In this document: piece after piece, positions 10,515 through 56,938 of the stretch
Layout: every line of letters begins with the position of its first letter
How positions within the stretch are numbered: the first letter of the stretch is position 1
Assembly: GCA_025890175.1 (NCBI GenBank)
Contig: JANPYM010000006.1
Coordinates: 2,512,073 to 2,576,072, forward strand
From: Ciborinia camelliae
Taxonomy: Eukaryota > Ascomycota > Leotiomycetes > Helotiales > Sclerotiniaceae
Reading direction: 5' to 3'
DNA: 64,000 bases
The notes under the pieces: model-generated
Seen by the model: the letters and a program-made list of their open reading frames with translations, nothing else
Database searches by the model: none
What the model was told of the DNA's origin: nothing
Translations under genes and position numbers: made by a program

Positions 10515-12320
10515 TTAATGCTTAGCCCAGGGCATGGCATCCTTTGCCGAGGCGAGAATATCTTTGCCATATTCCTCGATCTTGTCAAGTTTGCTCCTCC
10601 TCTGCGTCTCTCCCGTCCAACCTGAAGCACCCGATCTCACACTTCCACCCCAAATCGACTTCTTTTTCCTATAATAACTCGTCAGTATACCATGAGTTGA
10701 TGATTTATATACTACGGTACTTACAGATCTCGGTTCTCGTAGAATCGCTTCCGGTATGAAGCTCTGGTGGTATCCCAAATGCTGCATAGCTTTTGAAAAG
10801 TTTCCTTTCCCTTGGTATTCCTCAAAAGATATCCATCAATGGACTCGAGCGCCGCGTCCTCATTCCTGTCCAGGATTCTTATCAGTAGATTCTGAAATCC
10901 AATCTCGAATTCCGAAGTAATCGTCCGGTGTTCGGTCTTGCAGTTGTACATGTCATATCGCATATTCACAAGTTTGGCAAATGCCGCGCTTCCCCCAAAC
11001 CTCTCAACGGTATCGATCGTTACTCCGTAGTGCTCCTTGAACCATGGAGAATCGTCAAAGTCCGCATTGGATTTGATTCGAAAAAGGTCGGCGAGACAGC
11101 TGGATGGATGTTAGCGAGTGGTCGAAAATGCAATTCGTGTAGTACTGATTGACTTACGTTCCACCATGTGCTGACAGATTTCCTGTTTCAATCACGTGGT
11201 CGTCTCGAACCTCAAAAGGTTTCATCAACTCTCTCTTTCGGTTTAGTATACTGATAGAAACCTCACTGTGAGCGGCTAGTTCCTGACGCAACCCCTTCAT
11301 CTCGGCTGTTGAGGTCAACTTTTCCTCTTCGAGGTTCGCGATCAAGTTACTTTGTTCCTTCAACTTCTTCTCGTACTCATCCTTGATCTCAGCTACCGCG
11401 CTCTTCTCCCTTTTCTCGATATTGGCGATAATATCATCTTTCTCTTTCAACTTCTTCTCATACCTGCCCTTAATCTCAGCTGCCAAGCTCTTCTCCTTTT
11501 GTTTGAGATTCGCGATGATGGCATCTTGCTCCTTCACCTTCGTCTCATATCTGCTCTTTATCTCAGCTGCTGAGACGTTTCCCTTTTCCTTTAAATCGGC
11601 GATGATGTTACTTTTTTCCTGCAGGTCTTTCTCATGCTTACTCTTAGTTTCAGCTACCGAGACCTTTTCCCTTTCCTGAAGACCTGTGACGACGTCACTT
11701 TGCACCTTCAGCTTTTTCTCGTGCATGAGAACTTCCGACTGGAGCCTATTGACCTCGGATTTGAGTCTCACTCCCTCGGCTTTGAACGCATCTAAGAGTT
11801 TGGACATGCGCTCGGCCACCACTTTTTGGCAAAGAATTATCTCAATATTGTCCTGCTTGGTGTATGAACTTCGCCATGATCTTGTTGCAGATTCGTATTT
11901 CTTCCAAGCTCGTTAGTATTTTTATACGTGAGTATTCTTGGGGCTATCACTTACCTCTCGATCAACCTCTGCACCCGTAGCATCAAAAGCCATCCTATTT
12001 CTAAAAATTTCATTGATGGCCGCTGACCAGATCTTAATGTTTTGCTCTTGTACTTCGAAACAATTCAGATTCAATTTAGCATCTATCTTTTCGAATATGC
12101 CAATACGATTTATTAACAGCTTCTTTTCAGCTCCAGCTTCCATATTAGCAACCTCTAATGCCTTGATGATGTTTCGAAGCCATCTGTTCTCCGTGGTTAA
12201 TCTTCCGTTCAGTTGGTTTAGTTTATCGAGTTGTAGAATCTCGGACTTATCAATGGCTGAGCTCAGTGTGTCATCTTGAGATGTGCGCGGGGCGTTATTC
12301 GGTGTTTCTATGTGCGGCAT
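10515..12320 (-). CDS. coiled-coil protein A of a six-member local family
   Basis: Four exons on the minus strand: 12320-11955, 11900-11158, 11099-10725, 10668-10515, giving 545 aa with all frames closing. Introns are 54-58 nt with CTAAC/CTGAC branch sites. Residues 182-326 are five tandem 29-residue coiled-coil repeats (HEKxLxxxxxIIAxLxxKEK type). Then comes the family signature GNLSAHGGT (362-370), split by an intron after AHGG, and a helical C-terminal domain with a YG and a NMRYxMY motif. The C-terminal domain is clearly shared with gene B downstream and more weakly with C-F at 52-61 kb. I do not recognise a described family. The protein is probably cytoplasmic or structural: no signal peptide or membrane segment is visible. 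Confidence 0.85.
11289..11723 (-). repeat. five in-frame 87 bp repeats inside gene A
   Basis: Five consecutive 29-codon units, each beginning HEK or YEK/YET and ending AE(I/T/M)K. At DNA level they share blocks such as CTTCTCATA and TCAGCTGC. The unit length keeps the reading frame, so copy number could change without breaking the gene. Confidence 0.85.
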
Positions 12321-13232
12321 GTTGAACCTTTAAGGGTGTGGAGTGTGGGATTGTAAGAGTTTTTATGTCGAAGTGGAAATACCGGCAAAATAGTCCCTTT
12401 ATTATAGTGAGCATACCGTGGATGCGTTGAAAAGATTATGTGTTGGAATTTGGGGGAAAAGTCAAGGTGATCTAGTTTATGTTCGCAAGTTAAGTGATAT
12501 ATAGACTACCCAGTATGGCTGCTTGAATGCATACCGTAGTTCATTCGACATATTGAGTATTTTCTCCGTGATGAGCTCATATACGGCAGTGTGTTATACA
12601 GCAGAGTGGAATTTTCATGAATATAGGTCTTTCTAGAGCGTCTTTCCCTTTTATTGGTTGATCCTAGGTAGTTCTCTTCTTAGTTCCTGATTTCTAGTTT
12701 TTTTCTGTTGAAGTTGTTGGCTATTAGTTGGGCCACTTTCACATGTAGTTGAGATCGAGAGCTGAAATGAATCTTCATGGTTAACTCCTAGTTCCATAGA
12801 ATGAACTGCTTTAAAGAAATACCAAAGCACACTATTGATAACTCAAAATATGGGGGTTTTTATGGGTCATTGGCCAGGCAAAGAAAGACACAATTGACTG
12901 ATGATATTATAAGCCAATTTCTGGTTATAAAAGACCGTTGAAGTATCTGATTGTATTGAAGCTACGCTAAAAGTAATATAAACACTCCTTACAGGCTCTC
13001 CCATGTCTAGAGCTCAGTCGGTTTAACTTCATATGCTATAGCTAGTGGGTAAAAGTTTCATGACTTAAGGACTTGACTATGAAGCCAAAAAGAGAAAGAG
13101 AGAAGACAGATTGGATTTCCAAATCTGGGGGAGGCTCTATATGTATAAAAGAGGAGGGATATGATAGCATTGCGTAATATTCGGCATTAAATGTGACTCT
13201 GATGACTATAATTTCCACCCTTCAGAATAAAT
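12321..13232. other. intergenic between genes B and A
   Basis: This is the promoter side of gene A and the 3' side of gene B (both transcribed leftward). No further gene was seen. Confidence 0.45.
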
Positions 13233-14472
13233 CTATTTCTTGCGGATTCCATTTTTCCATAAGACGCAGAGGTCCTGGTAGAGATTCCTCATATCTGTCT
13301 CCATATCTCCTACAAGAAGACTTTGCACAGATTCAGCAGTCGCATTCTTATTTTCCAAAATTATTCCCAACAATTTTTGGAAGCCCTCTTCGAATCCATC
13401 AGCAGCCGTTCCAACATTCTCTCTATAACGATATAGTTCGTATCGCATGTTAATAAGCTTTTCGAATGCTTCGCTTGTTCCAAACTGAATTACAGTTTCA
13501 GGGGTTGTTCCGTAATATTCCCTGTACCATCTAGAGTCAGTGTTGTGGGAAGACATGATTCGGTAGGCGTCTGCGAGGCAACTTTTCAGCAAGTCAGTAA
13601 TTAAATCTTGGGCCTATTGGATAGAATAGAATAACTTACGTTCCCCCATGTGCAATCTTATTCCCCTTATGGATGATATTGATGTCACGGAAATGAGAAG
13701 GTCTGCTCCATTCCCTTTTTCTATCCATGATGCTTTCAACCACTTCGCTGTACACTTCAAGTACATGATCTAGATCCAGGACTTCGGAATAGATCTTTGA
13801 AATTTCTCTCTCGAGAACCGAGACTTGATCCCTAATATCAACAATTGTGCCATCTTGCTCGATTATCCTTTTCTCCAAACGTTCCTTCTCTGATTCTAGA
13901 TTCTGGGCCCGCCCTCGCTCGAAGATTCTACTCTTCATCAAATTTTTATTTTGAACTTTTAGCTCGTCCATCTGACTTTCCACCTGACTAATCTGCTCAT
14001 AATTCTCCGTCTTAAGGTCCGCCAACTTTAGTTCTAGGGCCAGAATATTCTTTTTCGCAATTGAGCGTTCCTCGGCTAACCTTAACTTCAGGATCTCAAT
14101 CTTCTTTTCCCAAACTGATCGTTCCTCAGCCAATGCCTTTGAGTTATTGTGTTTCGAATGAAGTACCACGGAGCGGAGGAATTCGTTATGCGTGTGTAAT
14201 TTCAAATTCTCCTCAACGAGTCCATCGCGTTCGAGTTGATGCCCCGATCGAAGTTTAGAAATTAGACGTCCAGTTTTCATGTATAGATCCCGCCAATCTG
14301 TACTAGTATTGGTCGGGGTGAGATTATTAAGCCCCTCGAGTACTATGGTATCCAAGTTCATGGGAATTCCATTCATATCTTCCTGGCTAGTCAGCTGAGA
14401 TATATCTGGTAGCAATGTTTGCGAAGAATTGCTGGGCTCCTGGGCGGAAGCAATGTTCTTTTGCTCGGCCAT
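13233..14472 (-). CDS. coiled-coil protein B, paralogue of A
   Basis: Two exons, 14472-13640 and 13581-13233, giving 393 aa. The 58 nt intron has donor GTAAGT, branch CTGAC and acceptor AAAAG. Residues about 80-250 form a long Glu/Lys/Leu-rich coiled coil without the tandem repeats of A. The signature GNKIAHGGT is at 270-278 and is followed by CLADAYRI, WYREYYG and NMRYELY, matching A. The intron sits at exactly the same codon position and phase as in A (after the two bases AC of the last Thr codon), which strongly supports common descent. Function unknown. Confidence 0.85.
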
Positions 14473-17089: not shown

Positions 17090-18661
17090 CTATTGCGAAG
17101 GTACTAGTGATATTTTCACTCCATTTCGACTCTCTCTGGTGAAAATCTGCTCTCCTACATACTCAAAACAAGGGTCTCGATTCTCACAAGCTCGAAATTC
17201 TTGCATCAACCTTACGAGAACATACGACACATCAGTTAATACGTTCTGTTGAGCAGGGCAAATGCGTCGTCCCCCAAGAAATGGGATATATTTCCAATCC
17301 TGCTTTCTCCCCTCCCACCTTTGTGGTCTGAACTCTAAAGCATCCGAGCCCCAAATGTCTGGATCTTGATGCATGGAGGCGAAGGCCATATCAACCTGAT
17401 CTCCAATTTCAATGTATATCGGATCCTGGCCCAAGGCGCCTCCTCCATGCGGAAGAACGCATGGAGCGAGACAAGTTTTCCAGCTCCGAACTACCGGACT
17501 AAGAATCCGAAGTGCTGAACATAAAATGTTAGGATCGTAGAATAAAGATGAAGATGAAGCAGGAGCCAATCACTTACTTTCACTGATGGCATGTTGCAAA
17601 TGTTTCAATGACTTCAGTCTCTCAAATGTCAGTTTTTCGTTACCGATACCCAATACCTCTGCTCGAATTCTTTCCCACTCGTCCGGGTGTCTCGCGAGCA
17701 AAAACACGACGTTACTCGTCAGGACTGCAGATGAATCCCGGGCGGGAAAGAAGATGTTCATCAATTCATTGCGGATAAACCGTCGATCTCCTGTTCCCTT
17801 TGCCAATTCCTTTAAGAGTATGTAATTATATGGAATGTCGCTCGAAGGTCTTCTTCTTTCTTCCATTTCTTCATCGATATAACTATCTATAATGGAATGT
17901 ACTTCGGCACACTTTCTCAACCATTCCTTCTCGCCACCCGCTAGAAATCTGAATTTGCCGAGAATGAATCTTTTGAGCATGCCTCGGAGAGCATCGTCGA
18001 ATGCTTGTGGAAGTCTGCGGGCAACAAGACTGCTGGTTTCTGGGGAGAGGGAGTTCGCTGACTTCCCAAATATGAATTCGGTGTTACTGTCCAGATATAG
18101 CATCTTACTCAATATTTGGAAATCGATTGTTGATCCGTCTCGAGGAATCTTATCCAACATTCGACGAACATGCAATTCAAATGTTGAGAGTTCTGAAACT
18201 TGAGCTCGAGTGAAAATGGGGTTCACCAATTGACGAGATTTTTTCCATCGCAGACCGTCGGTATTAAGTATGCCTTCCCCAAGAAATGGCAATGTAGCAG
18301 TATAATTCATAGGAGCCGACCCGAAGTTATCTACCTCCGTTGCTAATATAGTCTGGATATTTCGGGGATCCATCGTCACATATTGTCTTTTTCCCCAAAC
18401 GTTTGTTTGAACAGTTTTGCCATAATTGCTGAATAGATGTACATCCACGTCTAGCCATTTCCCTTCCTTTATAGCAGTGATACGCTTCATGAATAAATCC
18501 AGTCCGAAGATCGGGTCCCAGTGCCGGTATCGTATGGGAAGGCTGCAGCCATTCTGGTGGACAGCGTAGAGGTATCTTGCCCATTTCCAAACCACGCACA
18601 GGCCACAGATACCAAATACGAAAAGGGGGGCCAAGAGTCCTACCGAAAACATGGTAATCAT
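17090..18661 (-). CDS. cytochrome P450, CYP52-like clan
   Basis: Exons 18661-17578 and 17514-17090, 502 aa; the 63 nt intron splits the ExxR helix and its removal recreates ETLR (361-364). I chose ATG 18661 because the frame has no earlier ATG; it gives an N-terminal membrane anchor (MFSVGLLAPLFVFGICGL). Visible P450 landmarks are the I-helix motif ARDSS (about 307-311), ETLR, the PxRW-type FRPQRW (423-428) and the haem loop FLGGRRIC with Cys447, followed by PAQQ instead of the common LGQQ. The layout (LPHGGG, MHQDPDIWGSDA) resembles fungal CYP52/539-type fatty-acid or alkane hydroxylases. It would sit in the ER and oxidise a small hydrophobic substrate. Its position 3.2 kb from a UstYa-family gene makes a role in tailoring a secondary metabolite possible, but this is inference. 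Confidence 0.88.
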
Positions 18662-18984: not shown

Positions 18985-19640
18985 AAGATGTCAACAAACC
19001 CCTGGTATGGCGTCTTTTTGGAACAATTTTAGATACATACACTAATTTCCAATAGTATACTATCGATATATTGTATATTATACAATTGTCATTATATATT
19101 ATATAATTATAATCGCGTATTGATTACATAATATACCTAGTCAATTAATTTTTTTAATTTTTTTTAAAAATTTATTATTTTCTTAAAAAATTCAAAAAAA
19201 GTATTACTTTTTAGAAAATCTATAAAAAAAATTATTTGTCGCGATACTAGTAAATCGTATATGCGGCTATAGGGCGCCTGGCCGTAGACAGTCTATTTGT
19301 CCGCTTAGCGAGTATATAATGTAAAAGAGTAAAGGTTAATAGATAGATTATAAAGTTAGTCTTTTTTATATTATATAAGGATCAACGATAATAGTAGTCT
19401 AAAAAAAGATATTCATTTCATTTTATATAATAGTAAAATATAAAGGTGTTAAATTTAGGTTTAGAATATAATGTTTCTAAAATTGTCGCAAAAAGATACC
19501 GTATCTGGTTTATTATATTTGGCCTAATCACAAACGAGATTTGTAATACAGTAATGTATACAGGTGTCGCTCGATTTTGGTGCATAATAAGAAAGTCTTC
19601 GATTATGCCTTTTGTATGTAACCCTTCAAGAATCATTTGC
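18985..19640. repeat. AT-rich block, probable RIP-affected repeat relic
   Basis: Very AT-rich sequence with long A/T runs and no sustained reading frame, sharply different from flanking genes. It begins right after AGTACTAGCGTAACA (18971-18985), which recurs at 23768-23782. I infer a degenerate transposon. Confidence 0.5.
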
Positions 19641-19885
19641 AATCCTTCAAGCCTGTGTTAGCAAGGCGTAGAACTCTTTCTTGGACAATTCCCTGTGGAA
19701 CGCAGTTTCAATGTAACCTCTATTCATCTGTTGATTACGATAAATTAACCCCTCAATAATGGGTACCCAGGGTTATTACTCTTTAAGGTATTAGAAGAAG
19801 TATCTGTCTTACCCTCTCAATTTTGCCATTTCATGATTTACATATACATTTTCAACTACATTCTGTGATTTTGACTTCATCTACC

Positions 19886-21373
19886 ATGGCTTCCAATACC
19901 GAGGGAACCGCCATTTTTGTTCCTTACGCCACAGCTGGCGAGATCATTGCTACTGGCGTCGTTCTCCCAGTCCTCGGGGTCGTCGCAGTAGTTCTTCGGT
20001 TTTATATGCGCAGCAAGAGGAAAAATGCTGTGGGGTGGGATGATCTATTCATTGTTCCTGCTTTGGTTAGTTCAACCTTCAATTGGTAAACATCTTTCAA
20101 TACTCTAATCATGACTGGTATAGGTGATGGTTATTGGGATTGGCGCAACCCTTATTGCCGGTGAGATATTTCGGCGCGCACTGCTAAGCTGACAGAAGAA
20201 ACTAATTTTAACGTTTTGTTGTAGGCGTGAGGGAACATGGAATTGGCTACAAAACACCCCCTAGTACGGCAACTACGCAGACGGAAGTGTTAAATGAGAT
20301 AAATCCAGAGACGGCGGTCGGTGAGCAAGTATGGATAATGAAACATGATCTCTTTTATTTCGCTGACATCTCCACAGATTGAATGGGCTGTTACTTTGTT
20401 ACTCATTCTCGCATACGGATTCATTAAGACCAGCATTGTTCTGTTCTATAGACGCATCTTCGTCGTTAACCAGAATGATATCTTCAGCATCGCTACATGG
20501 ATTGTATTGGCGATCAACACTGCATGGATGATAGCATTCTTCTTCACCTTTCTATTCTCTTGTGGAACTAACTTCTCTGCGAACTGGGGATCACGCCTGA
20601 CCCTGATTGTTTACTGTCACAATAGTCTGATGAAAGAGGAAGCTCTTTATATCTCAGAATTCTTGATCAATATTTTGGTCTTGTCCATGCCTCTTCCTAT
20701 AGTAGGTTTGAATATCAACTCATAAAGCCAATATCTAACCCCAAGTTTATAGATATGGCGTCTTCATATGGCAACGAATCGAAAAGTCGCCATGACTGGG
20801 ATCTTCCTACTAGCCGCCATGTACAGCTCTCTTCCATCCTTGCCGTGCGCGATTTATCGCTGACCTTTGCAGGGCTCTCGTAGCATCAATAATTCGACTT
20901 GGCATTGTTCTCAAGCTGACGACTGGAAGCATAAAAACACTGCATTTCGATGAGGATTGTGAGTTCAACCCATTGCCCTCTAGATCCTTTCAGATCCGCT
21001 CGTTCACTAACAACACCCAATATTAGTGACTCTAGGCACAATATACTATTGGGGAATGATAGAAGCCGGACTCGCCCTCATAGCCTCATGCCTCCCTACT
21101 CTCAAGTCACTCGTCAGCACCCAGGGCATCGCATCTGCCGTGGCCAGCGTCCGAAGCGCCATATCGCTCCAGTCCTTGCGATCTCAAGTCCACGTGTCGA
21201 GTGGCTCAAAGGACTCTCAAGGTCGTACCGGCGCCATTACGAAGGGCACAGATGCATATAGTAAGATTGAAGGCGAATCTTCGAATGCGGCTTTAAGTGG
21301 GCATCAACATACTGTTATGAAGAAGACGAGCAATACCACCGGGTTTGAGGAGATTGCCATTCCGCAAAAGTAG
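19886..21373 (+). CDS. seven-helix fungal rhodopsin-domain integral membrane protein
   Basis: Seven exons: 19886-20065, 20124-20160, 20225-20328, 20378-20701, 20753-20820, 20873-20958, 21027-21373, together 381 aa with all frames closing. The N-terminus is outside, then hydrophobic helices run through VVLPVLGVVAVVLRFYMR, VMVIGIGATLIAG, WAVTLLLILAYGFIKTSIV, IVLAINTAWMIAFFFTFLF and later segments. Family hallmarks are the WDD motif after the first helix, the GY after the second, and KTSIVLFYRRIF on the third loop. The C-terminal tail (Ser/Thr-rich) is cytoplasmic. This is the large fungal 'rhodopsin domain' (PTH11-related) family; most members have no proven ligand. It lies between the P450 and the UstYa-like gene, so it may simply be a neighbour of that locus or act in transport or sensing for it. 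Confidence 0.85.
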
Positions 21374-21906: not shown

Positions 21907-22909
21907 TCAAATCAAATCATATATATATTTATTTCCATCATCGAACCAACTCCACACGTGATCATCAGCTGGTCTCCAACCCTGTCCCTTGCCAAAATAC
22001 TCCCTAACCGTCTCCAGATCCGGATTTCCCTCCCGACAATATCGCATCCGCGGAATCTGGCTTTCTTTCTGGTCTTCAACATTCGGGTCGCCGTATCGGT
22101 AGCATCCCGCATTCGCATAGGTCCATGCTTTGAGCGCGTCCCAATTCTTGCATTTGCGAAGCTGTCCCTCCCCAGTCACCGGTCGCATGTCTGGCGTGGT
22201 GACGCGAAGAGTATCGTCGGCTGCGCAGAGTATATCGGCACGGATTTGATCGAGACAGTGGATGATATGATGAGCGGGGAGGGATTGTTCGATGCCGAGC
22301 CGATATTCCATGAACGAGTGGTAAATATTTTTCTATCCATGTTGGTAGTTCTTAGTTTGTGAAGACCTGACCGCGGATTTTGCGTATGTATGTACTTACC
22401 ACGCAGTGCAAGCCATGATAAGCATTGACAAAATAAATGGTTTTGTCCGCATCCCAAGGGAACGTAGAGCCCATGGGCAACCCCTTTTCAGAAGCCCATG
22501 ACTTTGGCACCGCCACGATTCCACTATCGTGATTAATGGCGTCCCAGTATTGGTCCCTTTCGGTGGCATTAGGGCTCGAGTAGACAGAATCTTGCAGCCA
22601 TTCAACGAGGACTTCTTTATCCCGTAGATCGGCTGTACATATTTGTCAGAATGATGGTCCATCATTACGGAGAGTCAACTGACCGAACTCAGAACGGTGG
22701 CATTTTTGATCGTCGTGGTGGGGCCATAGGGATGAGCTTCGTACGGTTGCTTGTATAAGGTTTATGACCATAGAAAAGGCAAGGAGTCCACTCAGAATAC
22801 CACTGAGTCTCCATCTTTGACGTTCATTGGTACAATTAGGATGTTTTCTTCGTGCGAGAGAGTTCTTGTCATCACTGAGAAGACCTTCAGACTCATATTC
22901 TTTAGCCAT
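21907..22909 (-). CDS. UstYa-family (DUF3328) oxidase-like protein
   Basis: Three exons on the minus strand, 22909-22684, 22632-22400 and 22332-21907, giving 294 aa. Introns start GTCAGT and GTAAGT. A single transmembrane segment (about 36-53, LSGILSGLLAFSMVINLI) follows a short polar N-terminus. The two family motifs are intact: HGLHC at 148-152 and HIIHC at 175-179, the latter followed by LDQIRADILCAADDTL, the typical second-motif context. Motif 1 lies at the end of exon 2 and motif 2 just inside exon 3. UstYa-type proteins catalyse oxidative cyclisation or related oxidations in fungal RiPP (dikaritin) and other peptide pathways, probably binding copper through the HxxHC pairs. A possible precursor peptide gene starts 2.1 kb upstream on the opposite strand. 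Confidence 0.92.
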
Positions 22910-23477: not shown

Positions 23478-23712
23478 ATAAGCGAACCTACTTTTACGAA
23501 CGTACGAAAAGTACAAACCTTCGAATTGTACAAAGCTACGAAAAGTATTGTACAAACCTACGAAAAGTATAAATCTATAAATGAATTGTATAAATCGTAC
23601 AAACCTACGAAAAGTATTGTATAAACCTATAAACCTACAAATCGTACAAACCTACGACTTGTATAAACCTAGCCTACGAATCCTACGAATCTAGCCTACG
23701 AACCTAGTCTAT
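23478..23712. repeat. imperfect tandem repeat around GTACAAACCTACGA
   Basis: At least eight degenerate units of the kind GTACAAACCTACGAAAAGTA, many with C replaced by T (ATAAACCTATAAA), consistent with decay by C-to-T mutation. Confidence 0.65.
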
Positions 23713-23759
23713 AAGGATCTCAAGTGTAGAAAGAATGAAAGTTTAAATAAAGGCTTACT

Positions 23760-23781
23760 GTTACGCCAGTACTAGCGTAAC
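23760..23781. repeat. near-perfect 22 bp palindrome
   Basis: The block from 23760 reads GTTACGC-CAGTACTA-GCGTAAC, with one mismatch pair. Its right half plus one base is repeated directly at 18971-18985. This could be two fused transposon ends or an excision footprint. Confidence 0.6.
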
Positions 23782-25038
23782 ACTAGATAGCAGTACATAG
23801 CATTCTTCCATAGAATAATAACAACTTCGTCCCTCTTACCGTGACACTTACAAAAACGTACCAGCTTACCCTCATTAATTTTAAAATAATACTAATAATA
23901 TTAGAATTTTGATTAAAGGTAATATTAATAATACTAATAAGAGAATAACTTGAATTAAATTTGTTGTAAGAATATATAAATGTTATATATTCATTGTATA
24001 GAATATATACTACGAATACGAAATTAGCGTTTTACGTTAGTTTTATATTCTATAATAGATAACTAGTATATAATGTCTATACGATTACTATATATGATAT
24101 ATATAATAATACAACAAAATTATTTATAAAAAAAGAGTAATTTAATATTTAGAATACGAAAACTAAAAAAAAAATGTAAGTATAAATATAAAAAATATAT
24201 TATAATTAGCGATATAGCCCTAAAAGTAGATATAGAAGGACCATCTCACTTTTAAAAATTTCGTTATCTATCTATTATGATTGTGTAAATTCGCGTATCC
24301 TGTATGTACTATGTAGCCGCAGCTACGCTACACCGTGACTCTGCGTAGGATATACAAATATGATAGAAAGCCTTACAGCATTGCGATTCGCCCCTAGGTA
24401 ACGTCACGGTAGAAGCCGGGGATACCATCATCACCGAGTAGCTGGTCCGCGTATTTCCACCAATGAGAGAGATCAGATGAAGGTCGCGGTACAAAACTGG
24501 TTTTGAGAGTTTAGCGACGATTTTATTTCCGGTGGGGAGATGCATTTTCCATCTTCCTTCCACGAGCCGTTATCTTGCATGTTGTGGAAAGAAAGACAAG
24601 ACAAGGGGTGTGAGTTATCGTCATTTCCGAAATACAGGTGGGAGGTTAAGGTATCGATCGACACAGCATGCTGCATCTATCTGCCGTGCAGCGAGGTGAA
24701 AGATATGGAAGGAAGGTGGGTGGGTAATAATTGCCTCGATACGCCCGACCATCTTTATCGAATATCTAAGGCTTGATAGATGGATACAGATACAGATAGA
24801 TAGATAGATAGATAGATTGTGAAGATGGGTGTCACGATCCGGATTGGAAATTCAACCAGTGGGAAACGGGGGGAGTATATGAAGATCAACGACACCCGTC
24901 TATATTTTCGTGATTCCCACTTCCCCATATCTCGCAAGCAATCTAGATACACACACACACAAACACACATCAGAGAATCAAGCAGCGTCATTTTCTCCAT
25001 CATCCATCTCCTCTGCACAACGCATCCAGCCGTCCAAT

Positions 25039-25396
25039 ATGCTATTTAATAAATCGCTCGTTCTGGCGATGAGTTTCGCAACTCTCGCCATCACATCACC
25101 ATTAGCGACTTCTGGTAAGAAAAAAAACCCATCTCTATAAGTGCTGGCTCCCATCCCGAGTCACTTTCAAGGCTAAAGGAATTTCTCCAGATGGGATGGC
25201 CAGAGACGCGGGCGTGGGCCAAAACATAGCCGAACCAGGACGATTCGCCCGAAAGAGGCTCGAGAAGATCGCCGAGCCGGAACGATTCGCCAAGAAGGAT
25301 GCCAAGATGATTTTGGAGGAAAGGGGGAAGACGGTTGCCGAGCCCGGGCGATTTGCGAAAAAGGGGGTGGAGATTCAAAATGCGGTGTATGTTTGA
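25039..25396 (+). CDS. small secreted repeat protein, candidate Kex2-processed RiPP precursor
   Basis: Two exons, 25039-25114 and 25191-25396; the 76 nt intron has donor GTAAGA, branch GCTAAA and acceptor CTCCAG. The product is 93 aa. Residues 1-25 form a signal peptide (hydrophobic LVLAMSFATLAI, then SPLATS). The rest has no Cys and carries three copies of (I/V)AEP(G/E)RFA(K/R)K at 38-47, 52-61 and 74-83, so the conserved heptamer is AEPGRFA or AEPERFA. Each copy is followed by dibasic residues (RKR, KK, KK), the kind of site used by Kex2-type proteases in the late Golgi. This is the architecture of dikaritin-type and other KEX2-processed repeat precursors. A UstYa-family gene lies 2.1 kb away and a P450 further on, as in fungal RiPP loci. 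Function is inferred; KK is a weaker Kex2 site than KR, and no Tyr is in the repeat. Confidence 0.75.
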
Positions 25397-28617: not shown

Positions 28618-30626
28618 TCACACCAACCACCGCCAAACCGCCATCCAAAGCACCAGCAAACCCGCCCACGGCAACCCACCCATCTCCCCCCCAGGCCTCA
28701 CTCCGCCCACCCCACTCTGCACCAGCACGGCCGTGGGTAAACTCGCATTAACAAACCCCGGACCACACTGAGCATCGAGGACGCTCGCGGCCTCTGGATA
28801 AACGCGAGCGAGGGCGCTCGTCCGCACGCCGGCCGCCTGTTGAAAGATCGTCATGGTATTTTTCAGACACGTGTTGCAAGTCGGTTGAGTGCCGACGGGG
28901 AGCGAGACGTTGAGCGGGAGGTAGTAGATGTAGGAATCGGTGGGGGAGGAGGAGTTTGTGACGGCTTGCGCGTAGCAGTAGGCTGAGGTCGAGGGGTCTT
29001 TGAGACAGGATGCCGTGTAGAGGGTGGAGTAGGCGAGGAGACCGAGGCGCGCTTGTGTGATGAGGGGGTTGTGGGCGAGGAGGTCTAGGGAACAGGTTGT
29101 GGGGGAGGTGAGGTTGTTGGCGAGGGTAGTCATTAGGGTGGAGCAGGTGGTGGGGTTAGCTGAACAGGTGGCGTCGAGGGTTTGGGTGATGCGGAAGTGT
29201 GATTTGCTGGCTTGGAAGAAGGAGTTGGAGTTCTGGGGTGGGGATTTGTTAGTTTGATGCTTGATGATGTGATGGGATGTTTATATCAATTTAGGGAATG
29301 GAGGTGAATGTATAAATGAGATGAGGTTTATGGGATGAAATGAGAGGATAGATGAGATGAAATAGAATGATATAATGAAATTAATGAAGCTCCTCAAAAT
29401 CATAAAATCCCCTCCCTCTACTCCCTCTAGTCCCATCTCAAAAATATGGGATGACAAATTACACATTACAAATTACACATCAAAAAACACAATACAACAC
29501 CACACCACAAAACACAACACAAAATAAAACAACATACCTGCAACAGAAGAGAAAAAGGCAAACAAGCCTTAAAAGATTCATTTGCCAAAAAGCCCATCAT
29601 AAAACTCGAGCACGACGCCGTGATATTACTCGTAAACCCACTATCAAACGGCGCGGGCAACGCCCCCGCATTCCCCGTAGCCGCGGACCAGAGTCCACTA
29701 CTCGTTTCCGAAGACGCCAGGGTGGATGATGAAGAGGATGCCGTGACGGTGCTGGTCATGATACTCTTGGGTGGGATGATGGTTGCGGTCGATGTGATCG
29801 TTGCGATGTTTCTTTTGTGGAGGTCCGAGGAGGGATTGGCTTCTTCATCGGATGAACGTTCTTGGGATTGAGATTGAGATAGAGGTTGGAATTTCTCGAC
29901 TTCTAGATCTTGATTCAAATCATGATTTGTATCTGTATCCAGATCTAGATCATCTAAATTTTGATGACCTAGATAAAAATGATGATTGTTTACAGATATA
30001 TCATATTCATTTTCACTTTCACTCTCGTCTTCTTCACGATCCTTGGTATCGGGACGCGTAATTTCCCACTGTTTTAAAGCTGGGATGGTTGCGCGTGGGA
30101 GCGAGGGATTCGGTCGTTGATCAACCAAAATCGTACCGGATCTAGCTAGACGTTCAAGTGTCGATGCGAATAATTCGGGTATGTCATTCCTCACATCCAC
30201 CATTTGTTCCTCGATGTAGTATTCCGCCGAACATATTTGAATGAAGAGGGTGAAGAAAATGGTTAGGATTATTATTATATTAGTGTGTGAAAAGAGGAGG
30301 AATATTTTCCTTGGATAAGATGGATATGAGGATATATATTTTTTGGAGGGGGATGTTGATGTTGATGATATCGATGATGCAGTTGATGTGGGTATTGAAG
30401 TGAGACAATTGGAGATGGAGATGGAGATAGAGATGGAGATGAGCGGAGCTGAGATCCATTTGATTGTAGGGATTGAGATAGGGATAGGGAATGGGGTAAC
30501 AGCCAGTGATGCCGTTGGATTGTGCAACATTAAACATTGCAAAGAAGGTGAGGATCGACACCTTTGAACAACATCCATCTGATCCATATCCATATTATTC
30601 GAAGAAGAAGAAGTATCCATATCCAT
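28618..30626 (-). CDS. DUF7729-type secreted/GPI-anchored protein
   Basis: Two exons, 30626-29538 and 29232-28618 (donor GTATGT, acceptor CCCCAG), giving 567 aa. A long Ser/Ile-rich N-terminus precedes a strong hydrophobic segment at about 110-130 (NIIIILTIFFTLFIQICSA) that could be a signal anchor; the mature protein may start after it. A basic/acidic linker (about 200-290) and a Ser/Thr-rich stretch follow. The conserved cysteine-rich domain spans the splice junction: SCSSFMMGFLANESFKACLP before it, then TLDATC, CSLDLLAHNPLITQARLGL, SYIYYLPLNVSLP, PTCNTCLKNTM and CGPGFVNASLP. The hydrophobic C-terminus (LLVLWMAVWRWLV) is typical of a GPI signal. I recognise the fungal DUF7729 family; role probably at the cell wall, unproven. 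Confidence 0.85.
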
Positions 30627-32895
30627 ATCCGTATTATTCGAAAAAGAAGATATCTCACGATAAAGATAAATATCTTTAGAATCGTAGTTCCAGCATCACT
30701 CTATCGAGTTTAAAATCGACAACCGATATAGTCGTCGAAGAGAAGATGAGATGCGAGGAGAGGAGATAGGTAGATACCTAATAAAAGTACCCGACCGGTA
30801 CAAATGATGGAATTCGTTCAATTAAGTTGTTCCTGGAAAATCGTATCGTATCGTATCGTAGGTATCGTATTGTAGGTATTGTAATGTATTGTAGGTATTG
30901 TATTATAACGTATCGGAACTGATGAATATTTCTGGAACGAGGAATCAATCAGTTGAACAATATCGAGTTCGTTCCTTGTAATAAATATCCTTCCGTATCC
31001 TATCCTTCCCTATCCTTCCCGTCTCAAGCTCGAATCGCGATTGGAAAATTATAAGATTGAAGGTTTGAAGTTTGATGGATAGTCCTGGGTAGGTAGGTAA
31101 GTATCCAATAGTAATTAAAATATATCCGTCCGATATTTTTCGATTGCTAAGATTCCTTGACGTGATCTTCCTCTCCTTCGTCATCGATGTATATATGGAT
31201 GGTGTATGGATGGTGTATATTGCTATCAAGTACTGTACGTTATCGATTCGCAACTATCTATCGTATGATGGCTTCGGTGCGTGATTGAAAGGGGATAGGT
31301 ATTCATCAATAGGTAGGTAGGTGGTTAGGTGGTTATCTAGGTACCTAGTAGGTAAATAAAGTAAAGTAAAGCCAAGTAAAATCAAATCAAATAATCGTAA
31401 AGATGAGATGAGAGGAGACAAGAGGAGATGAGGAGATGAGATGAAAACACGCGAAGAATAATTTAATATCTTCGAAACCACCTCAATCACAATCACAATC
31501 ACAATCACAACCAAAGCCCAAGCCCTCGCAAAAGAAAAAGAAAAAGAAAAGAATGACAGTAGTTGGAAAGGAATCGGAATCGGAATTTCCTCGAGTACCT
31601 ATGAAATACAACTGAAGCTATCGATATCGATAGATAATGAAGCTGTCGATAATGAAGGATAGGTGTGATAAGATGAACAGGAAGAAAATCCAGAGAAAAA
31701 TGTTTCGAGTGATACTATAGTGTAGGTAGGTAGGTAGGTAGGTAGTAATCGATCACTTTTTTCCTTTCCTTTTCTTTCCAATCTAATCCAATGCAATGCA
31801 ATGCAATGCAACGCAAAGCCTTTCTTTCCTTTCTTTACTTCACTTCAGTTCATCTCATCTCATCTCACATCCATCTATCCATACACAACGACTCTCCACT
31901 CTCCACTTCTCTCGGCGTTGCGTTGCGTTGCGTTCACGGGCGCCCGTCCAATTCCGTCCAGTCCAGTCTAGTCCAGTCTAGTCCAGTCCAGTCCAAGCAG
32001 ACTTCTGGATTGAGATGAGATGAGATGATTCGATCGATCGAGATGATTCGACAGGCAAAATCAAAATCGATAACTAGGGAACTAGGTCTGGGTAGGTATG
32101 TATGTATGTATGCAGGTCCAGGGATTTTACGAATTTACGAATTTACGAATTTACCTATCCAAACGGTAAATCGTCCGTTGGTTTATCGGGTTTATCTGGT
32201 TTATCGGTTTATCCGAAATGTCTTTGGAAGGTTTTCACGAGCGAGTGAGTGCGATTTGTTTAATACGATCTATTCCAATCCAATACGATCTAATCACGTA
32301 AATACCATACCATACCATACCGTTCGTCAATCGTCGATATAAATCAAGGATGGATAGATAGTGTTGATGGATGGATCGATGGATCGAGAGCTTTTCTAAA
32401 TACTAGGAAGGAAATAGGTAGGTGGTATATACCTACCTATCTATCTATCTCGTAATCAGGTAGCTATCTAATAGAATCTAGATAATGCCAATAAAGATGA
32501 AGAAGAATCCCGGGATATGAATTAGAATTACTAGGTATAGATGGATTCTAATATAAAGCTAAAGGTCGATCTGCTCATCAAGGACGAACGGGTACTAAGA
32601 TACCTATCGAACCTAGATAGTCTAGTTTGCTTAATAGAAAATCGATTGTGGATTCGATCTCTGGATCTACCGATGGATAGATTGGATGGAGTACCTAGTG
32701 GATGGAATACAGGACTAGGAAAAAGATTGCCGGGGGATTTGCATATGTGATATGGATGGAGATACTTTGGAGGTTGGTTGGTATATTGAAGGAGATATAA
32801 GATATATCTAGGTAGGTAATATCCGTTGTTATGCTTCGATTCATTCAAATACGAGGGTTATTTACCTGCTCTACTCTATTCCCTCGGTAGGTTAC

Positions 32896-47753: not shown

Positions 47754-48185
47754 ATAAAAGCCTCGTTTGATTTTTTCATCTCTCTCGGTCCTTTTTGTTA
47801 AGCGTGAGCATTCCCCCCAAAAATACATTCCTTGGTCAGGTCGGAGCGAAGTGAAGGGAATGGAGTTGGGGGCTTGGGGCACGTCTTTGGCTGGCTTGCT
47901 TGTCTGCTTGTCTGCTTGCCTGCTTGCTTGCTTGCTTGCTTGCCGGTTTGTTTACTAGGTAGTTACACCGTATTTTCCATGCAATGGTCGTACTCCTGAG
48001 ATATGTTCGGTTCGGTTCGGTTCTGTTTGATGGATGGATGGATGGATGGATGGATGGATTGGGCTCAGCGCTGTGATTTGATTTGATTGCTTGATTGGTT
48101 CCCTGGTCTTTCCACGTGAAACGGAAGTGGAAGCAAGTCCGGATGGGTTTCGTCATCCGTCTCATGGATGCGTTTGTTTGATTGA

Positions 48186-48272
<87 letters not shown>

Positions 48273-48287
48273 GGATTGATGGATTGA
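48186..48287. repeat. GATT microsatellite
   Basis: About 24 GATT units, with GGATT variants at the right end. A short GGAT run precedes it at 48032-48058. Confidence 0.95.
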
Positions 48288-48381
48288 TGATTGACATTTG
48301 TACATTATGAATTGGAGCGCCGTTTTGCACTTCCTTCCTTCCTTCGTTTTCTTGGTGTGCTTCGTGGATTGTGGAGTGTTG

Positions 48382-48382
48382 G

Positions 48383-48453
<71 letters not shown>
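48382..48453. repeat. GAT trinucleotide microsatellite
   Basis: 24 perfect GAT units, reading as poly-Asp or poly-Met in plus-strand frames; non-coding in my view. Confidence 0.95.
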
Positions 48454-48454
<1 letters not shown>

Positions 48455-48692
48455 CCTTTTTTTGATCCTCTCTTGCAATGGAATGAAATGGAATGTAATG
48501 TGATCTGATCTGATCTGATGTGTAGATACCTACCTACCTACCTATGCATATTTGACGTAATTTCAATACTTGGGTATCATTTCTTAATCTGCTTTGTACA
48601 ACTCGGTCTCGATATATAGGACAACATTCACCCCCTCACCACCACTTCTTCCGCAACAGCCATTTTCTATCCACCCCTACCTACCTACCTCC

Positions 48693-51046: not shown

Positions 51047-52225
51047 AATGCATAAATGCAAAATGGGGTGTCCCAATATCTTTCTACTATTGTTACACCG
51101 GGGGCGAGCTGGATATCGTCACCCTTCTTGTTGCATTGTCTTTCGCTTTCCTTCCTAATGTTTTGTGAGCTTACTAAGATTTCGTGAACTATTACCCCTT
51201 TCGACCCGTTACATTGCATTATCTTCTGCTTGATTTTCTGCATAAACGACAAAAAAACCTTTCGCATATTGGATTTAATCCTATCAACTGCATTACTGAC
51301 ATTTGGTTCATCCAAATTTAATTGCGGCGTGAGGCTTGTGGGGAATCACACCTCGATTCTCCAATATCATTTGGCGGCCTTGGGAGTGAGCATCGGAAAA
51401 AGCAATGTTTAGCCCCACCATCAGCATTTCCACTTTATCGAGTTCTTCGTAGGGTACCCGACTCCTCTCCCTCCAACTTCCCAGGTTCCCTTTCCACCGA
51501 ATCGCCAAGGTCTAAATATTGCAAATATGGAAAAATGAGGCTCGATTGTCCGATTCAGGTCGAGGCCGGGGAAGATTGCGTTAGCATGATTAGTACCTTT
51601 TCATATGCATCACTGGCATTAGGTCAAAAGATCTGTTGGCCCGGCGGTTGCGAAAGAATCTAGACGATCATATCCACGCCTCATTTTTAACCACGAATGA
51701 GACGAAACACGTGGCATCAGCATAGTAGGTACCTGAACAGTTGAAACTTTGCCTAAACCAGTGAAGTGTTTCTTTATCGCCCAATCCTCCCTCATACTGC
51801 TTGTTGCTTCGTTGTCGGCTCGGCTTGGTGGCCAAGTTTTTTTTTGTTTGGACTGCTTGCTACCCTTCCGTACCTGCATTGTTTTTATACATGTACTTTG
51901 GGCTCCGCTGATTTATTCTTCTCTTCACAATACAGCCCCATCATTCTTCTGCGATTTCTTTCGCAAATAATTACCTTTAATCTTTTCAAGTCATTTATTT
52001 GCTTCTTGGATTTTTCTTTCTTTTTTCTTCACCATTTTTTCAACATTTGAACATTCTGTCATACCGAACTAGGTTCTGTTTTTGGTTCAACCTTGCACAA
52101 CAAAAGCAAAGGAATTGCAGTAGCTTTATTGGACCCTGCCCGTATTTTTAATTTCAGCACCCGCTATTTCAACCTTTATACAAAAACATCACGACACTCT
52201 TTTTAAACCCCTACCCCAATCCATC
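51047..52225. other. intergenic, weak minus-strand frames
   Basis: A minus-strand ATG frame (51879-51619, 86 codons, basic) and a second minus-strand frame without an ATG (51508-51308) look slightly protein-like, but I find no convincing splice that links them. 51890-52060 is T/C-rich, like the leader of gene C. Confidence 0.35.
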
Positions 52226-53629
52226 ATGTCAGAATCCGGATATTTTAACATGGACGAACCCACCTCGTCAGGTCCTGAATGTGACCTTATGGAAGATTCT
52301 GGGGTTGTTTTCGAAGAAGAAGATAATTTTCCAGAACAAACCACAGGAGAACGCCTCGGAGCTATCTTCGAAGATGAAGAAAAAATTCAAGAGGAAGATA
52401 ATACTCGAGATGAAACCCCAGAAGCACGACTTGCACTGAAAAAAATCAATCTCAAAAAATGTGCTGAAGATATGGTTTCTGAGCATTCAGAAGCCGTGGC
52501 TCTTTCTGTATTGGCAAAGAAAATCGAATCAGGACTGAAGGAGGTCAACATCAAGTTATTGGAGAAGAACGAAATTGTCCAATACTTCATCAAGAGAAAC
52601 GGTGAATTGTCAACTGAGATCCGAGAGGAGGAGACCAACATCAAGTTCTTCCATTTGGAATCATCACTGGGTATGAAGACTTTGGAATGCGAGCAACTGT
52701 TTGAGGAAAACCAAAAGTTATTGGAGAAGGTCAGACTCTATGAAGAAGCCGTGAACGACAAGGGGAAAATCGACGTGGGCGCCTTACTAGTCGAGAACTC
52801 CGAATTAAAACTCAAGCTCGAATCATCATCTACTCAGCCAGATTTCGACTATGGTGCACCTCCACACGAAGAGCTTCAAAGCGAAGCTACCTTTGTCAAT
52901 CCTGATCACCACGTTGCAGACTGGAAAGAAAATCCCAAGGTCCAGGAATTTATTGCCGAAACCGTTCGCTCTGCCCTCAACCAACAGCGAAAATCAATGA
53001 AACATCTTTTCTTCGTCGGTCAGCGTGTCCGCAATAGGTTCCTCGAAAGGAACTCTGGCTTCGATCCCAAAGCCAAGGAAAGAAACGCCATCTATGAATT
53101 GGGTAATTCGAGCGTCTATAATGGACGTCCCATTACCGATGCTACTCTCTTCTCTCACGTGCCGGGCATTGCATTCGAGAAGCGAACCGATGAAGAAACT
53201 TTCAAGGAGCTCTATTGGGCAAGCTGGCAAACCGTACTCCGTCTTCAAGATTGCGCCGAATTCATCGAAATGCTCCGCTGGCATTCATCCGTCAAAGCCT
53301 GGCGCAAACAAGACTACATGGACACGGAATTCTTTGACACCTGGACCAAAAACATCGACACGACATTCGAGGACATGGACTTGGCCGCCGTGCGCGAATA
53401 TTGCGGGAACATCACCCGCAAGAAGTTAAAGGCGTGTTACCTGGACGAGAAGAGGAGGAACATGAAGATTAGAAGGGGAATGGGAATGGGATCAGGCAAT
53501 GGTAAGTCTGATTATCTTCCTTGTGCTTGTGATTGTGGAGAGCAAGTTCAGGTTCCGCTTGAAGTTGTTGTTGCGAAGTCCAACCACGTGTCGAGGTTGC
53601 CTTTTGGCAGGCGAGATACCGTATCGTAA
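52226..53629 (+). CDS. coiled-coil protein C of the local family
   Basis: Single-exon reading of 467 aa from ATG 52226. The N-terminus is very acidic (EEEDNFPEQ), then a coiled coil at about 75-215. The C-terminal domain (about 245-410) contains DWKENPKVQEFIAETV, GQRVRNRFLERN, the degenerate signature GNSSVYNGRPITDATLF, a WASWQTVLRLQ helix and a DTEFFDTW..FEDMDLAAVREYC block. These align with gene D in the same order and with A, B, E, F at the signature region. The end is uncertain: a donor GTAAGT at 53503 and acceptor GGCAG at 53608 would replace the last 40 or so residues by a Gly-rich tail ending at 53852. Function unknown. Confidence 0.75.
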   Translation: MSESGYFNMDEPTSSGPECDLMEDSGVVFEEEDNFPEQTTGERLGAIFEDEEKIQEEDNTRDETPEARLALKKINLKKCAEDMVSEHSEAVALSVLAKKIESGLKEVNIKLLEKNEIVQYFIKRNGELSTEIREEETNIKFFHLESSLGMKTLECEQLFEENQKLLEKVRLYEEAVNDKGKIDVGALLVENSELKLKLESSSTQPDFDYGAPPHEELQSEATFVNPDHHVADWKENPKVQEFIAETVRSALNQQRKSMKHLFFVGQRVRNRFLERNSGFDPKAKERNAIYELGNSSVYNGRPITDATLFSHVPGIAFEKRTDEETFKELYWASWQTVLRLQDCAEFIEMLRWHSSVKAWRKQDYMDTEFFDTWTKNIDTTFEDMDLAAVREYCGNITRKKLKACYLDEKRRNMKIRRGMGMGSGNGKSDYLPCACDCGEQVQVPLEVVVAKSNHVSRLPFGRRDTVS

Positions 53630-55612
53630 ATTCTTATCTCATCGTATATTATTTACTGAATGTGCGACAAGAAACGCGTGTGTCTTTGGGAATGGGAATG
53701 GGAATGGGATGGGGGATTGTGGCGGGTGTGATGCGGTGGGGAATGTTGGCGTTGATCGTCCTCTGTCAATTCATCCTCTGGATATTGTGGTGGGTGGAGC
53801 AGCACGACTTGATGGGGTTGGAGGATTGGCTGGATATGGACCTGGAGCTTGATCTCGCGTGGTGCGGATTGGGCACATACGACTGGGAGATGGAAGATAT
53901 GGTGGTGTGTGCGCGGACGAGCTTGATGTTGGGATGGTTGGTGGGCGAGTGTGCAGTTCTCACTGCACATCGAAGGGGCTGGAACTCGAACTGGAACTGG
54001 AAATGGGGTATTCCACGCGCTGGGAATTTTGGGCGGAGTTTGTGCTTTTGGATGTGAATGGACGGATAATGAGAGGAGGATGGTTCGCTGGCTTGAAGGC
54101 ATGAAACGTGAGGCATGATGAAGCATTCATTTGAAATACGGAAATAATATTGGATGGGGATGGAGATGGGGATGGGGATGTTTATGGATGGTTATGGATG
54201 GATGGTTGGATGGGTTTGGGCACGGATATGGATATGGATATGGATATGGATACGGATCGGACGATTATGATAACGAATTTGGATATACGAAATACACACG
54301 ACGGATGACGGATGATGGACGATGGACGAACAGATACAACTGCATCACGCTCGAATACGAATTTCTTTTAGAAAGCAACAGAAAATACCCAATGGTTCAT
54401 GGTTCATGGTTAATGGTTAATGGTTAATGGTTTAGGAGTTTTTCTTTTCTTCTTCTTCTTTTCTTGGCTTTTAGTTTGGAAGATGCAGACAGACAGACAG
54501 ATGAGATGAGATGAGATGAGATGGGATTGGATGGGATTTTCCTCTAGAGTAGATTGATTGTGAAATGATTATATATGTAATGAAATGAAATTTAGAGGTT
54601 TTATGATGGCCGGCCGTTGAGGCATTTTGCTGAATGGGTCGTGAATGGGTGAAGAAGAGTGGATGTGGATGTGGATGGTAGGTAGATGTCCTGAAAAGTT
54701 TTAGCAGTAAGGGTGAGAATGAGAATGAGAGTGAGAATAAGAGACCTCAAATTAAGACCAAATAAATTTTTTTTTTTGGCAGGTATGTACCTACTAGGTA
54801 GGTACCTATTCAGATAAATAAGAGTACAGCACCTTAGTGGGTCGGTCCACTTCCCCTCCCTACCTATCTATATCTATATCTATCTGATTGGGGAGAGATT
54901 TCGCCATGTAAGATATTTCGCCATATTGGTACCTAGGGTCGCAGACGGGGCGAGCGTCTCCCATATATATAATGGCCAACAACCTTAAGTCAAGTCGACA
55001 AACTATCAAGCCCGCCCGTCACTGCTGTTGGATGGTCACTGAGTCAGGGAAGATGATCAAGTGCTTTGCTGTCATTGAAAAGTGCGCAAGAGTTGCTCTT
55101 TCATTTATAAGCATATGGTCAGTGAAGTGACCATGGCAAAGGATTATCTGCTAGTTGAGAAGGCTCGCCCTCTCCAGCAATTGCTAGTATCACTCAGGTA
55201 TGGTGGCTCAGTGGTTGGGGAGGTGAATCAGGTGACTGAGAGCTTCAGACCATTACAGTCAAGACATTCCGATTCCTCATTTTTGAAGCATAATTTTATT
55301 GTCCTTGCCGTTTATATTCTGACTCTGACTTCTCAAGATACATATAGTTGATATTCGATCTTTGTCATTGTCGACTTTTCTTTTTTTTTGCAGGACTGAC
55401 TTCTCGAGACATCACCACCTTTTCAAATCTCAAGCTTCACTTCAGCAATCAGCAAAAGAATTTTAACATCTTATTTGGCTTAACGTGTTTTCACTTTCGG
55501 ATTGATGGTAGATTTGCGATGATACTTGTCTCCCGCTTCTAGACTTTGTCTTGATTTTAATTCCATCATAACACAGACAAACAAATACCAGTTTATCAGA
55601 ACACAAATCACC
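53630..55612. other. intergenic, G-rich simple repeats
   Basis: Contains GGAATG, GGATGG and GGATAT (54222-54250) repeats and a TACCTAGGTA-rich block at 54780-54810. Possibly holds an alternative last exon of gene C (to 53852). 55360-55610 is a T/C-rich leader for gene D. Confidence 0.45.
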
Positions 55613-56938
55613 ATGTCGGGGTGGGGAGTAGGTCATTTCCAGTCCGAAACCCAGTGGGGCCCTTCAGATCCTCTTGAAGCTTCAGCCAGTAATGGCTGGA
55701 GCAATCAGGATGGCTTTACGTTACCTCAAATTCGTCCTGAAGCCGAGTCTGTCATCGAAGCACAGATAGCGGCAAAAGAAGCCGAACTTCTCACATTGTC
55801 GACAGAAGTCAAGATCAAGGAACAGAAGATTCACGAATCTACCGAAACCTTCGAGCGCAAAAAGTCGGAGATGCATAACGCAATCACTCAATTGGCGGAG
55901 GATACGGCGGAGTTGGTGGTGGCAGAAAAGAAATATGATCTACTTGTCGAAGAGATTCGTTCGCAGACTGAACACCTGCAAATAACTCGGGCGGCGAAAG
56001 ATCGTGCACATGGACAACGGACGTGGGAACAATGTTTGCTCAAGGAAAACAAGAAGCTGAAGAAGAAAGTCGAGTCCCTCCAGCAAGACAAGGTTCTCGC
56101 GGCGGATCATTGTGCATACTATGTTAATGAAGCCGATTCATTGAAGAAGGATATGGATGAACTGAAGCGCGAGAATGGGTCTCTGGGGCGTGATCGGCGC
56201 GAAACTAAGTCATATTGGGATGATTATAACTGGAAAGTAGATCCAAAAGTGAAGGAACATGTCGCTGCTGCTGTGAAGGATGCTGTGAAGGATGCTGTGA
56301 AGGAGGCCGTGGCGAAGGCAGTGAGTTCTGTGGGTGCAAAGTCTGACATGGTTGGTCCAAGTGTACGGGCGAGCTTCCTTGAAAGCCATCGGGTGCGTGG
56401 CCTTTCAACTTCTACTCGTACTCAGGCACTTGTCCCACACGGATCCAAACCTAGTCATGGTTTCGATGTTCTCGCCGACGCGACTTTATATGTCGACTCC
56501 AAGATACCCGGATTTCGCACAGACAGCGACACATTTGCTCGGATCTATGGTGTTCAATGGTCGACTGCCTTGAAGCTAGAGCTTTGTTCCACGTTCGAAG
56601 ATTTGGCAAACAAATATGCTTTAGCGAAGAGTTACTGTCCACATACATTTCAAGCCACAGAATTCTTCAAGATCTGGTCAACTATGGGCATCTCATTTGA
56701 TCATATGAGCTTTGGGGAGGTTAAGTCATGGGTCAACAACACTCGACGTGACATGTTCAAGACGACCTTGAATCTGAATCTTGCCCTCGCTGAGATGAGC
56801 CGACTGTGCAACGACGGAGTTGTTCCTCAATCTCATGACATGATGACAACGGACAACATTCGCATGCAGCAAGTGTCGGGAAATGAAGACGCTGATTTCT
56901 GGGGATCAGCAAAATGGAACCCTGGCGGCTGGGATTAA
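55613..56938 (+). CDS. coiled-coil protein D of the local family
   Basis: Single exon, 441 aa from ATG 55613 (context CACCATGTC). The N-terminus is Trp/Gln/Ser-rich, followed by a coiled coil at about 50-200. Then VDPKVKEHVAAAVKDA and a threefold 12 bp repeat (GATGCTGTGAAG, about 56279-56305) extend an amphipathic helix. The C-terminal domain has RASFLESHRVRG, signature GSKPSHGFDVLADATLY, FARIYGVQWSTALKLE, FFKIWSTMGISFDHMSFGEV. It is the closest relative of C in this window (same block order). No signal peptide or membrane helix. Function unknown. Confidence 0.8.
   Translation: MSGWGVGHFQSETQWGPSDPLEASASNGWSNQDGFTLPQIRPEAESVIEAQIAAKEAELLTLSTEVKIKEQKIHESTETFERKKSEMHNAITQLAEDTAELVVAEKKYDLLVEEIRSQTEHLQITRAAKDRAHGQRTWEQCLLKENKKLKKKVESLQQDKVLAADHCAYYVNEADSLKKDMDELKRENGSLGRDRRETKSYWDDYNWKVDPKVKEHVAAAVKDAVKDAVKEAVAKAVSSVGAKSDMVGPSVRASFLESHRVRGLSTSTRTQALVPHGSKPSHGFDVLADATLYVDSKIPGFRTDSDTFARIYGVQWSTALKLELCSTFEDLANKYALAKSYCPHTFQATEFFKIWSTMGISFDHMSFGEVKSWVNNTRRDMFKTTLNLNLALAEMSRLCNDGVVPQSHDMMTTDNIRMQQVSGNEDADFWGSAKWNPGGWD

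Follow-up and report, generated by a model that had tools for sequence, protein, structure and literature searches.

A candidate dikaritin-like RiPP precursor beside a UstYa-family gene in Ciborinia camelliae

The class of Kex2-processed repeat proteins (KEPs) was surveyed by Le Marquer 2019 (PMC6339444), and the catalogue of 2020 comprises 7878 KEPs in 838 types together with 2560 stand-alone ones (Umemura 2020, PMC7329392). According to the passages cited here from that catalogue, DUF3328 genes are found near 1758 of the 7878 KEPs (22%), with a mean distance of 3.09 genes and a maximum at the next gene, and tyrosine is present in 65.6% of the repeats of the DUF3328-linked KEPs (PMC7329392). 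Dikaritins are RiPPs produced from KEPs and cyclised by UstYa homologues, and five of them had been reported by 2022 (PMC10512285). As described in the passages cited, victorin is closed via a C-terminal phenylalanine and the epichloecyclins via an N-terminal isoleucine together with an internal tyrosine (PMC9233826), and the gigA cluster consists of four genes (PMC7317419). Not all DUF3328 genes belong to RiPP clusters, some being part of polyketide or nonribosomal ones (PMC12048977).

The locus compared here with these systems lies in a 64 kb stretch of the Ciborinia camelliae genome, which was analysed as a whole and is called the window below. It contains a frame for a 93-residue protein, the candidate precursor, which we consider, with a probability of about 0.68, to be a KEP and the precursor of a dikaritin-like RiPP. 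With the dikaritins ustiloxin, phomopsin, and asperipin-2a the locus shares a signal-peptide-like start, repeated cores with Kex2-type sites, an adjacent UstYa gene, and a P450 gene nearby. It combines a KEP-type precursor, with a putative signal peptide judged by inspection only, and a UstYa/DUF3328 gene including the HxxHC motif twice. It differs from these dikaritins in having only three, unevenly spaced copies of the core, a single UstYa gene in the window, and no tyrosinase among the open reading frames scanned. Also the tyrosine that serves as the cross-link site in all three is lacking from the core, which has phenylalanine instead. Tyrosine was counted as typical of dikaritins and not as strictly defining them, since victorin uses phenylalanine.

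Victorin of Cochliobolus victoriae is likewise a KEP product of a plant pathogen with phenylalanine instead of tyrosine as the cross-linked aromatic residue, a role for which phenylalanine is only a candidate here (PMC9233826, in the part cited). In the present core the phenylalanine is followed by alanine and is not C-terminal, and no other victorin-type genes were recognised. The victorin core, taken without an alignment, presumably differs from (I/V)AEP(G/E)RFA. The epichloecyclins and GigA of Epichloe have in common with the locus a small DUF3328 cluster and a core with N-terminal isoleucine and a later aromatic residue, but in the passages cited they are described with tyrosine, where the present core has phenylalanine, and with 27-residue repeats, and the gigA cluster with a kexin gene (PMC9233826, PMC7317419). 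No kexin gene was recognised here. The sequence features that define KEPs as a class (Le Marquer 2019; Umemura 2020) are also those of the candidate precursor, the signal peptide being putative and judged by inspection only, but the core string is absent from the literature text searched (supplementary tables being outside its scope) and no protein homologue was found.

Translation confirmed the frame that the first-pass annotation had reported, which encodes 93 residues without cysteine, with an N-terminus resembling a signal peptide and with three repeats, the splice being predicted (Table 1). The N-terminus, judged by inspection only, reaches an 11-residue hydropathy maximum of 2.2 at residues 7–17, which are followed by SPLA. 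An alternative acceptor at 25178 likewise leaves the frame open. The predicted intron is short, like the two introns (51 and 67 nt) of the UstYa gene.

Table 1. Features of the window and KEP-like frames of other UstYa regions in the C. camelliae genome.
Feature	Position	Strand	Details
Cytochrome P450 gene NHQ30_005737	17090..18661	-	exons about 18661-17578, 17514-17090; Pfam p450 E 2.2e-20, 3.4e-12
Fung_rhodopsin (PF20684) multi-exon membrane protein gene	within 19787..21373	+	between P450 and UstYa genes; middle ORF E 1.6e-12
UstYa-family (PF11807/DUF3328) gene NHQ30_005739	21907..22909	-	294 aa; exons 22909-22684, 22632-22400, 22332-21907
AT-rich RIP-like island	23501..24500		between UstYa gene and candidate precursor; GC 0.30-0.32, TpA/ApT 1.17-1.52
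Candidate precursor gene	25039..25396	+	two-exon frame, 93 aa, 0 Cys, three (I/V)AEP(G/E)RFA(K/R)K copies; translation
Exon 1	25039..25114	+	signal-peptide-like N-terminus MLFNKSLVLAMSFATLAITSPLA...; translation
Predicted intron	25115..25190	+	76 nt, GTAAGA...CCAG
Exon 2	25191..25396	+	all three cores and stop; translation
Repeat 1, IAEPGRFARK	25226..25255	+	R next, giving RKR site
Repeat 2, IAEPERFAKK	25268..25297	+	
Repeat 3, VAEPGRFAKK	25334..25363	+	
DUF7729 protein gene	28618-30695		next recognised gene on the other side of the candidate precursor; Pfam
AIVYPAE-type x6	L041:1547-2038	-	UstYa region; KEP scan
GTGSDRY x6	L036:7354-7827	+	UstYa region; KEP scan
EDLIEQY x4	L035:8333-8590	+	UstYa region; KEP scan
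QMFSDIE-type x3	L026:2061-2372	-	UstYa region; KEP scan
SDAAELW-type x3	L037:9348-9983	+	UstYa region; KEP scan

The basic sites of the candidate precursor are RKR at residues 46–48 and KK at residues 60–61 and 82–83, and the spacing of the repeats is uneven, 14 and 22 residues. KK is a weaker Kex2 site than KR, and it occupies two of the three sites. The pattern GCNGARCCNGNNMGNTTYGCN was found three times in the genome assembly (46.2 Mb in 27 contigs), each time within the candidate precursor, with no match on the reverse strand and none for a reversed control. When the residues were shuffled, two 7-residue copies with at most one mismatch appeared in only 3 of 2000 shuffles, while the protein has three. 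The definition of Umemura 2020, in the part cited, calls for an N-terminal signal peptide, which is putative here, and for at least three repeats of at least eight residues between KR, KK, RK, or RR, and the protein has an octapeptide three times, ending in RK(R), KK, and KK, although the 40-aa seed algorithm of that paper might fail at the uneven spacing (PMC7329392).

The three 10-codon repeats differ from each other at 7 (repeats 1 and 2), 9 (1 and 3), and 8 (2 and 3) of their 30 bases, and the spacers separating them are unrelated by eye. The repeats are not recent DNA copies. Synonymous codon differences number 3, 5, and 4 in the same order, non-synonymous ones two in each pair. Under random placement of an equal number of base changes, so few non-synonymous changes have p-values of 0.029, 0.003, and 0.003, the pairs not being independent. 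The dN values of the pairs are 0.09–0.12, and dS is 1.2 for repeats 1 and 2 and not computable for the other two pairs. Mostly synonymous differences are the pattern expected from selection on the peptide, and they support the coding reading even without a homologue.

The core had been given earlier as the heptapeptide AEPGRFA or AEPERFA. The conserved block begins with I, I, and V in the three copies, thus having an aliphatic residue at position 1 and phenylalanine at position 7, and the core is therefore better taken, probably, as the octapeptide (I/V)AEP(G/E)RFA. The statement that it is not recognisable among described fungal peptides held: no protein homologue was found, and AEPGRFA, AEPERFA, and related strings are absent from the open-licence literature text of PMC, figures and supplements being outside its scope. 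Among the matches listed, no paper title deals with RiPPs of C. camelliae. An amidated, RFamide-like C-terminus was considered and dropped; such amidation would need glycine before the basic residues, and they are preceded by alanine.

The search with the candidate precursor covered 5.77 billion proteins, in a database clustered at 90% and with lengths of 0.55–1.75 of the query. It gave 17 word-sharing candidates and no match at E ≤ 10, the copy of its own genome included. The flanking genes are present in the same database as NHQ30_005737 and NHQ30_005739, and the public annotation of C. camelliae thus apparently lacks the candidate precursor. Also within its own genome a protein search found no paralogue at E ≤ 10, but only the protein itself.

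The UstYa gene is the nearest recognised gene, the two start codons lying 2.1 kb apart and the genes being divergent. Its last exon matches Pfam PF11807 with an E-value of 1.2e-10, and the gene model agrees with the annotation, the product being 100% identical over 294 aa to NHQ30_005739 (database entry P0001). In an alignment of 12 sequences (P0001–P0012 of the 16 matches, four of 168–193 aa being left out) H148, H151, C152, and H178 are invariant and H175 and C179 nearly so, forming two HxxHC motifs, which we take to be typical of the UstYa family. The P450 model, the start and intron of which were placed by reading the sequence, is 97% identical over 95% of its length to the database protein P0017. 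A second AT-rich RIP-like island (19001–19500) separates the P450 gene from the rhodopsin-like one, and the GC content of both islands is 0.24–0.32. Pfam was run on 20 stretches chosen from the 102 stop-to-stop open reading frames of at least 100 aa in the window. None of these 20 showed a recognisable tyrosinase, peptidase, or transporter; their other outcomes were LRR, response-regulator, CAF1, ARMT1-like, one sub-threshold IATP, or nothing.

The UstYa protein search identified 16 proteins, one being the window's own and 15 its relatives, and the P450 search at least 111. Linkage of the two genes was judged from equal recorded contig size, from which we infer that the contigs are the same. 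Among the matches listed, four of the 15 UstYa relatives share an equal-sized contig with a P450 match, three of these at 57–76% identity: Rutstroemia sp. NJR-2017a BBW (contig size 415,102; UstYa P0010 and P450 P0036, 71%), Sclerotinia trifoliorum (2,432,036; P0014 and P0021, 76%), and an ENA contig (18,941; P0016 and P0058, 57%). The last is the strong case of linkage because both genes would fall within 19 kb. In the fourth, Stromatinia cepivora (4,533,853), the UstYa protein is 66% identical but the P450 only 36%, and the two are 34 locus-tag numbers apart. Five relatives are on contigs of less than 4 kb and are uninformative about the linkage. For Hymenoscyphus fraxineus, four Hypoxylon, and one Daldinia, with UstYa contigs between 72 kb and 4.0 Mb long, there was no equal-sized P450 contig among the matches listed. 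Sclerotinia nivalis has a 69% identical P450 but no UstYa match, and in C. camelliae itself the Mb-size contig that carries the window also has a P450 paralogue of 65% identity. The P450 linkage is therefore patchy, and of the parts of the cluster the P450 is the less certain one. The UstYa model of S. trifoliorum is 168 aa long and ends at the second HxxHC motif; the gene, or only its model, is perhaps truncated.

Counting that in the window, the genome has 58 stretches with a UstYa domain match, and outside the window these were grouped into 33 regions. The KEP scan covered 20 of the 33 regions and the window, altogether 264 kb, for frames with at least three near-copies of 7 residues (at most one, else two mismatches), each followed immediately by a dibasic site. 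It found seven frames, the candidate precursor and six others, in six of the 20 regions. Five of the six are given in Table 1; the sixth, RRMQPRA (L033), is doubtful and was discounted by eye as probably a non-coding frame rich in Arg. The controls were ten order-2 Markov simulations of 264 kb, which gave no KEP-like frame, and the rest of the window as real DNA, where no second frame with three or more copies was detected. Judged by repeats and dibasic sites, the C. camelliae genome thus has at least six KEP-like frames linked to UstYa genes, the candidate precursor being one of them.

The main rival to a modified RiPP is a KEP from which peptides are secreted in linear form and without modification, as signals or directed at the host, the UstYa gene being there by coincidence or serving another product. 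We regard this as rather unlikely, even though 6120 of the 7878 catalogued KEPs are without a nearby DUF3328 gene (PMC7329392) and UstYa proteins act outside RiPP clusters too (PMC12048977), as stated in the passages cited. Also the lack of tyrosine in the core would suit linear peptides, and with 33 other UstYa regions in the genome chance neighbours are possible, but it is the UstYa gene that stands nearest among the recognised genes, and the KEP scan showed no other candidate substrate with at least three copies in the 64 kb window. A chance frame across a tandem DNA repeat, with no gene at all, would agree with the missing annotation and homologue and with an intron that is predicted. Nevertheless, the number and mostly synonymous nature of the base differences between the copies, the unrelated spacers, and the rarity of such repeats in the shuffles and simulations make it very unlikely.

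The same architecture of signal peptide, repeats, and Kex2 sites is found in precursors of alpha-type mating pheromones, a reading that we consider extremely improbable here. The alpha pheromone core is of the WCxxPGQPC type, which the present core is not, and the genome has repeats of WCGRPGQP, which we take to be the pheromone core of the Sclerotiniaceae type, at two other places (13 at C7:164732-165669 and three at C6:490790-491040); the reading was rejected because of these repeats and the different core. The basic sites are not followed by a run of XA/XP dipeptides, only a single DA being present. In the passages cited from the catalogue, annotated pheromone KEPs are nearly all without DUF3328 neighbours (PMC7329392).

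The dikaritin-like reading, which the first-pass annotation had already suggested, gained support from the complete UstYa gene 2.1 kb away, the P450 gene, the synonymous pattern, and the other UstYa-linked KEP-like frames, while the excision and cyclisation it also proposed stay conditional. The repeats with their dibasic sites and the restriction of the motif to this one gene in the genome also favour it. Against this reading are the lack of tyrosine, KK at two of the three sites, the uneven spacing, the patchy P450 linkage, the negative homologue search, the failure to recognise a tyrosinase, peptidase, or transporter in the 20 stretches given to Pfam, and the occurrence of DUF3328 proteins in non-RiPP clusters (PMC12048977). 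The kind of precursor is well known, and the novelty is in the sequence, as far as searched. As a dikaritin-like precursor it would enter the secretory pathway via its signal peptide, and Kex2/Kex1-type proteases would cut each copy off at the RKR, KK, or KK behind it and remove the basic residues. The UstYa-family protein encoded next to the precursor would then oxidise the octapeptide or a trimmed form of it. In the boldest step, this oxidation would perhaps tie the side chain of Phe7 to that of an aliphatic residue, for instance the Ile or Val at the N-terminus; the analogy to epichloecyclins and victorin makes residue 1 and Phe 7 the candidate partners. Further tailoring may come from the nearby P450, and the modified peptide would be secreted. 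A more specific proposal, speculative and in our view unlikely, is a UstYa RiPP based on Phe and free of Tyr: one UstYa protein, alone or together with the P450, would join Phe7 by an undescribed cross-link to the N-terminal Ile/Val or a different residue, the product coming from a small cluster whose UstYa–P450 pair recurs in some other Helotiales.

With this apparently unannotated frame, a UstYa gene of a flower-specific plant pathogen gains a candidate substrate, and a Tyr-free core with phenylalanine would let it be asked what UstYa proteins are capable of beyond tyrosine ethers. The other UstYa regions of C. camelliae suggest several further peptides of the dikaritin-like kind.

On both sides of the window (10515–14472 and 52124–61028) there are long open reading frames that look coiled-coil-like by eye, some of them sharing an AHG(G/A) segment, and none of the five scanned had a Pfam match; they perhaps represent a lineage-specific gene family. 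Short tandem repeats at 47836–48537 give long runs of His or Ile and a repeated INQS in the open frames.
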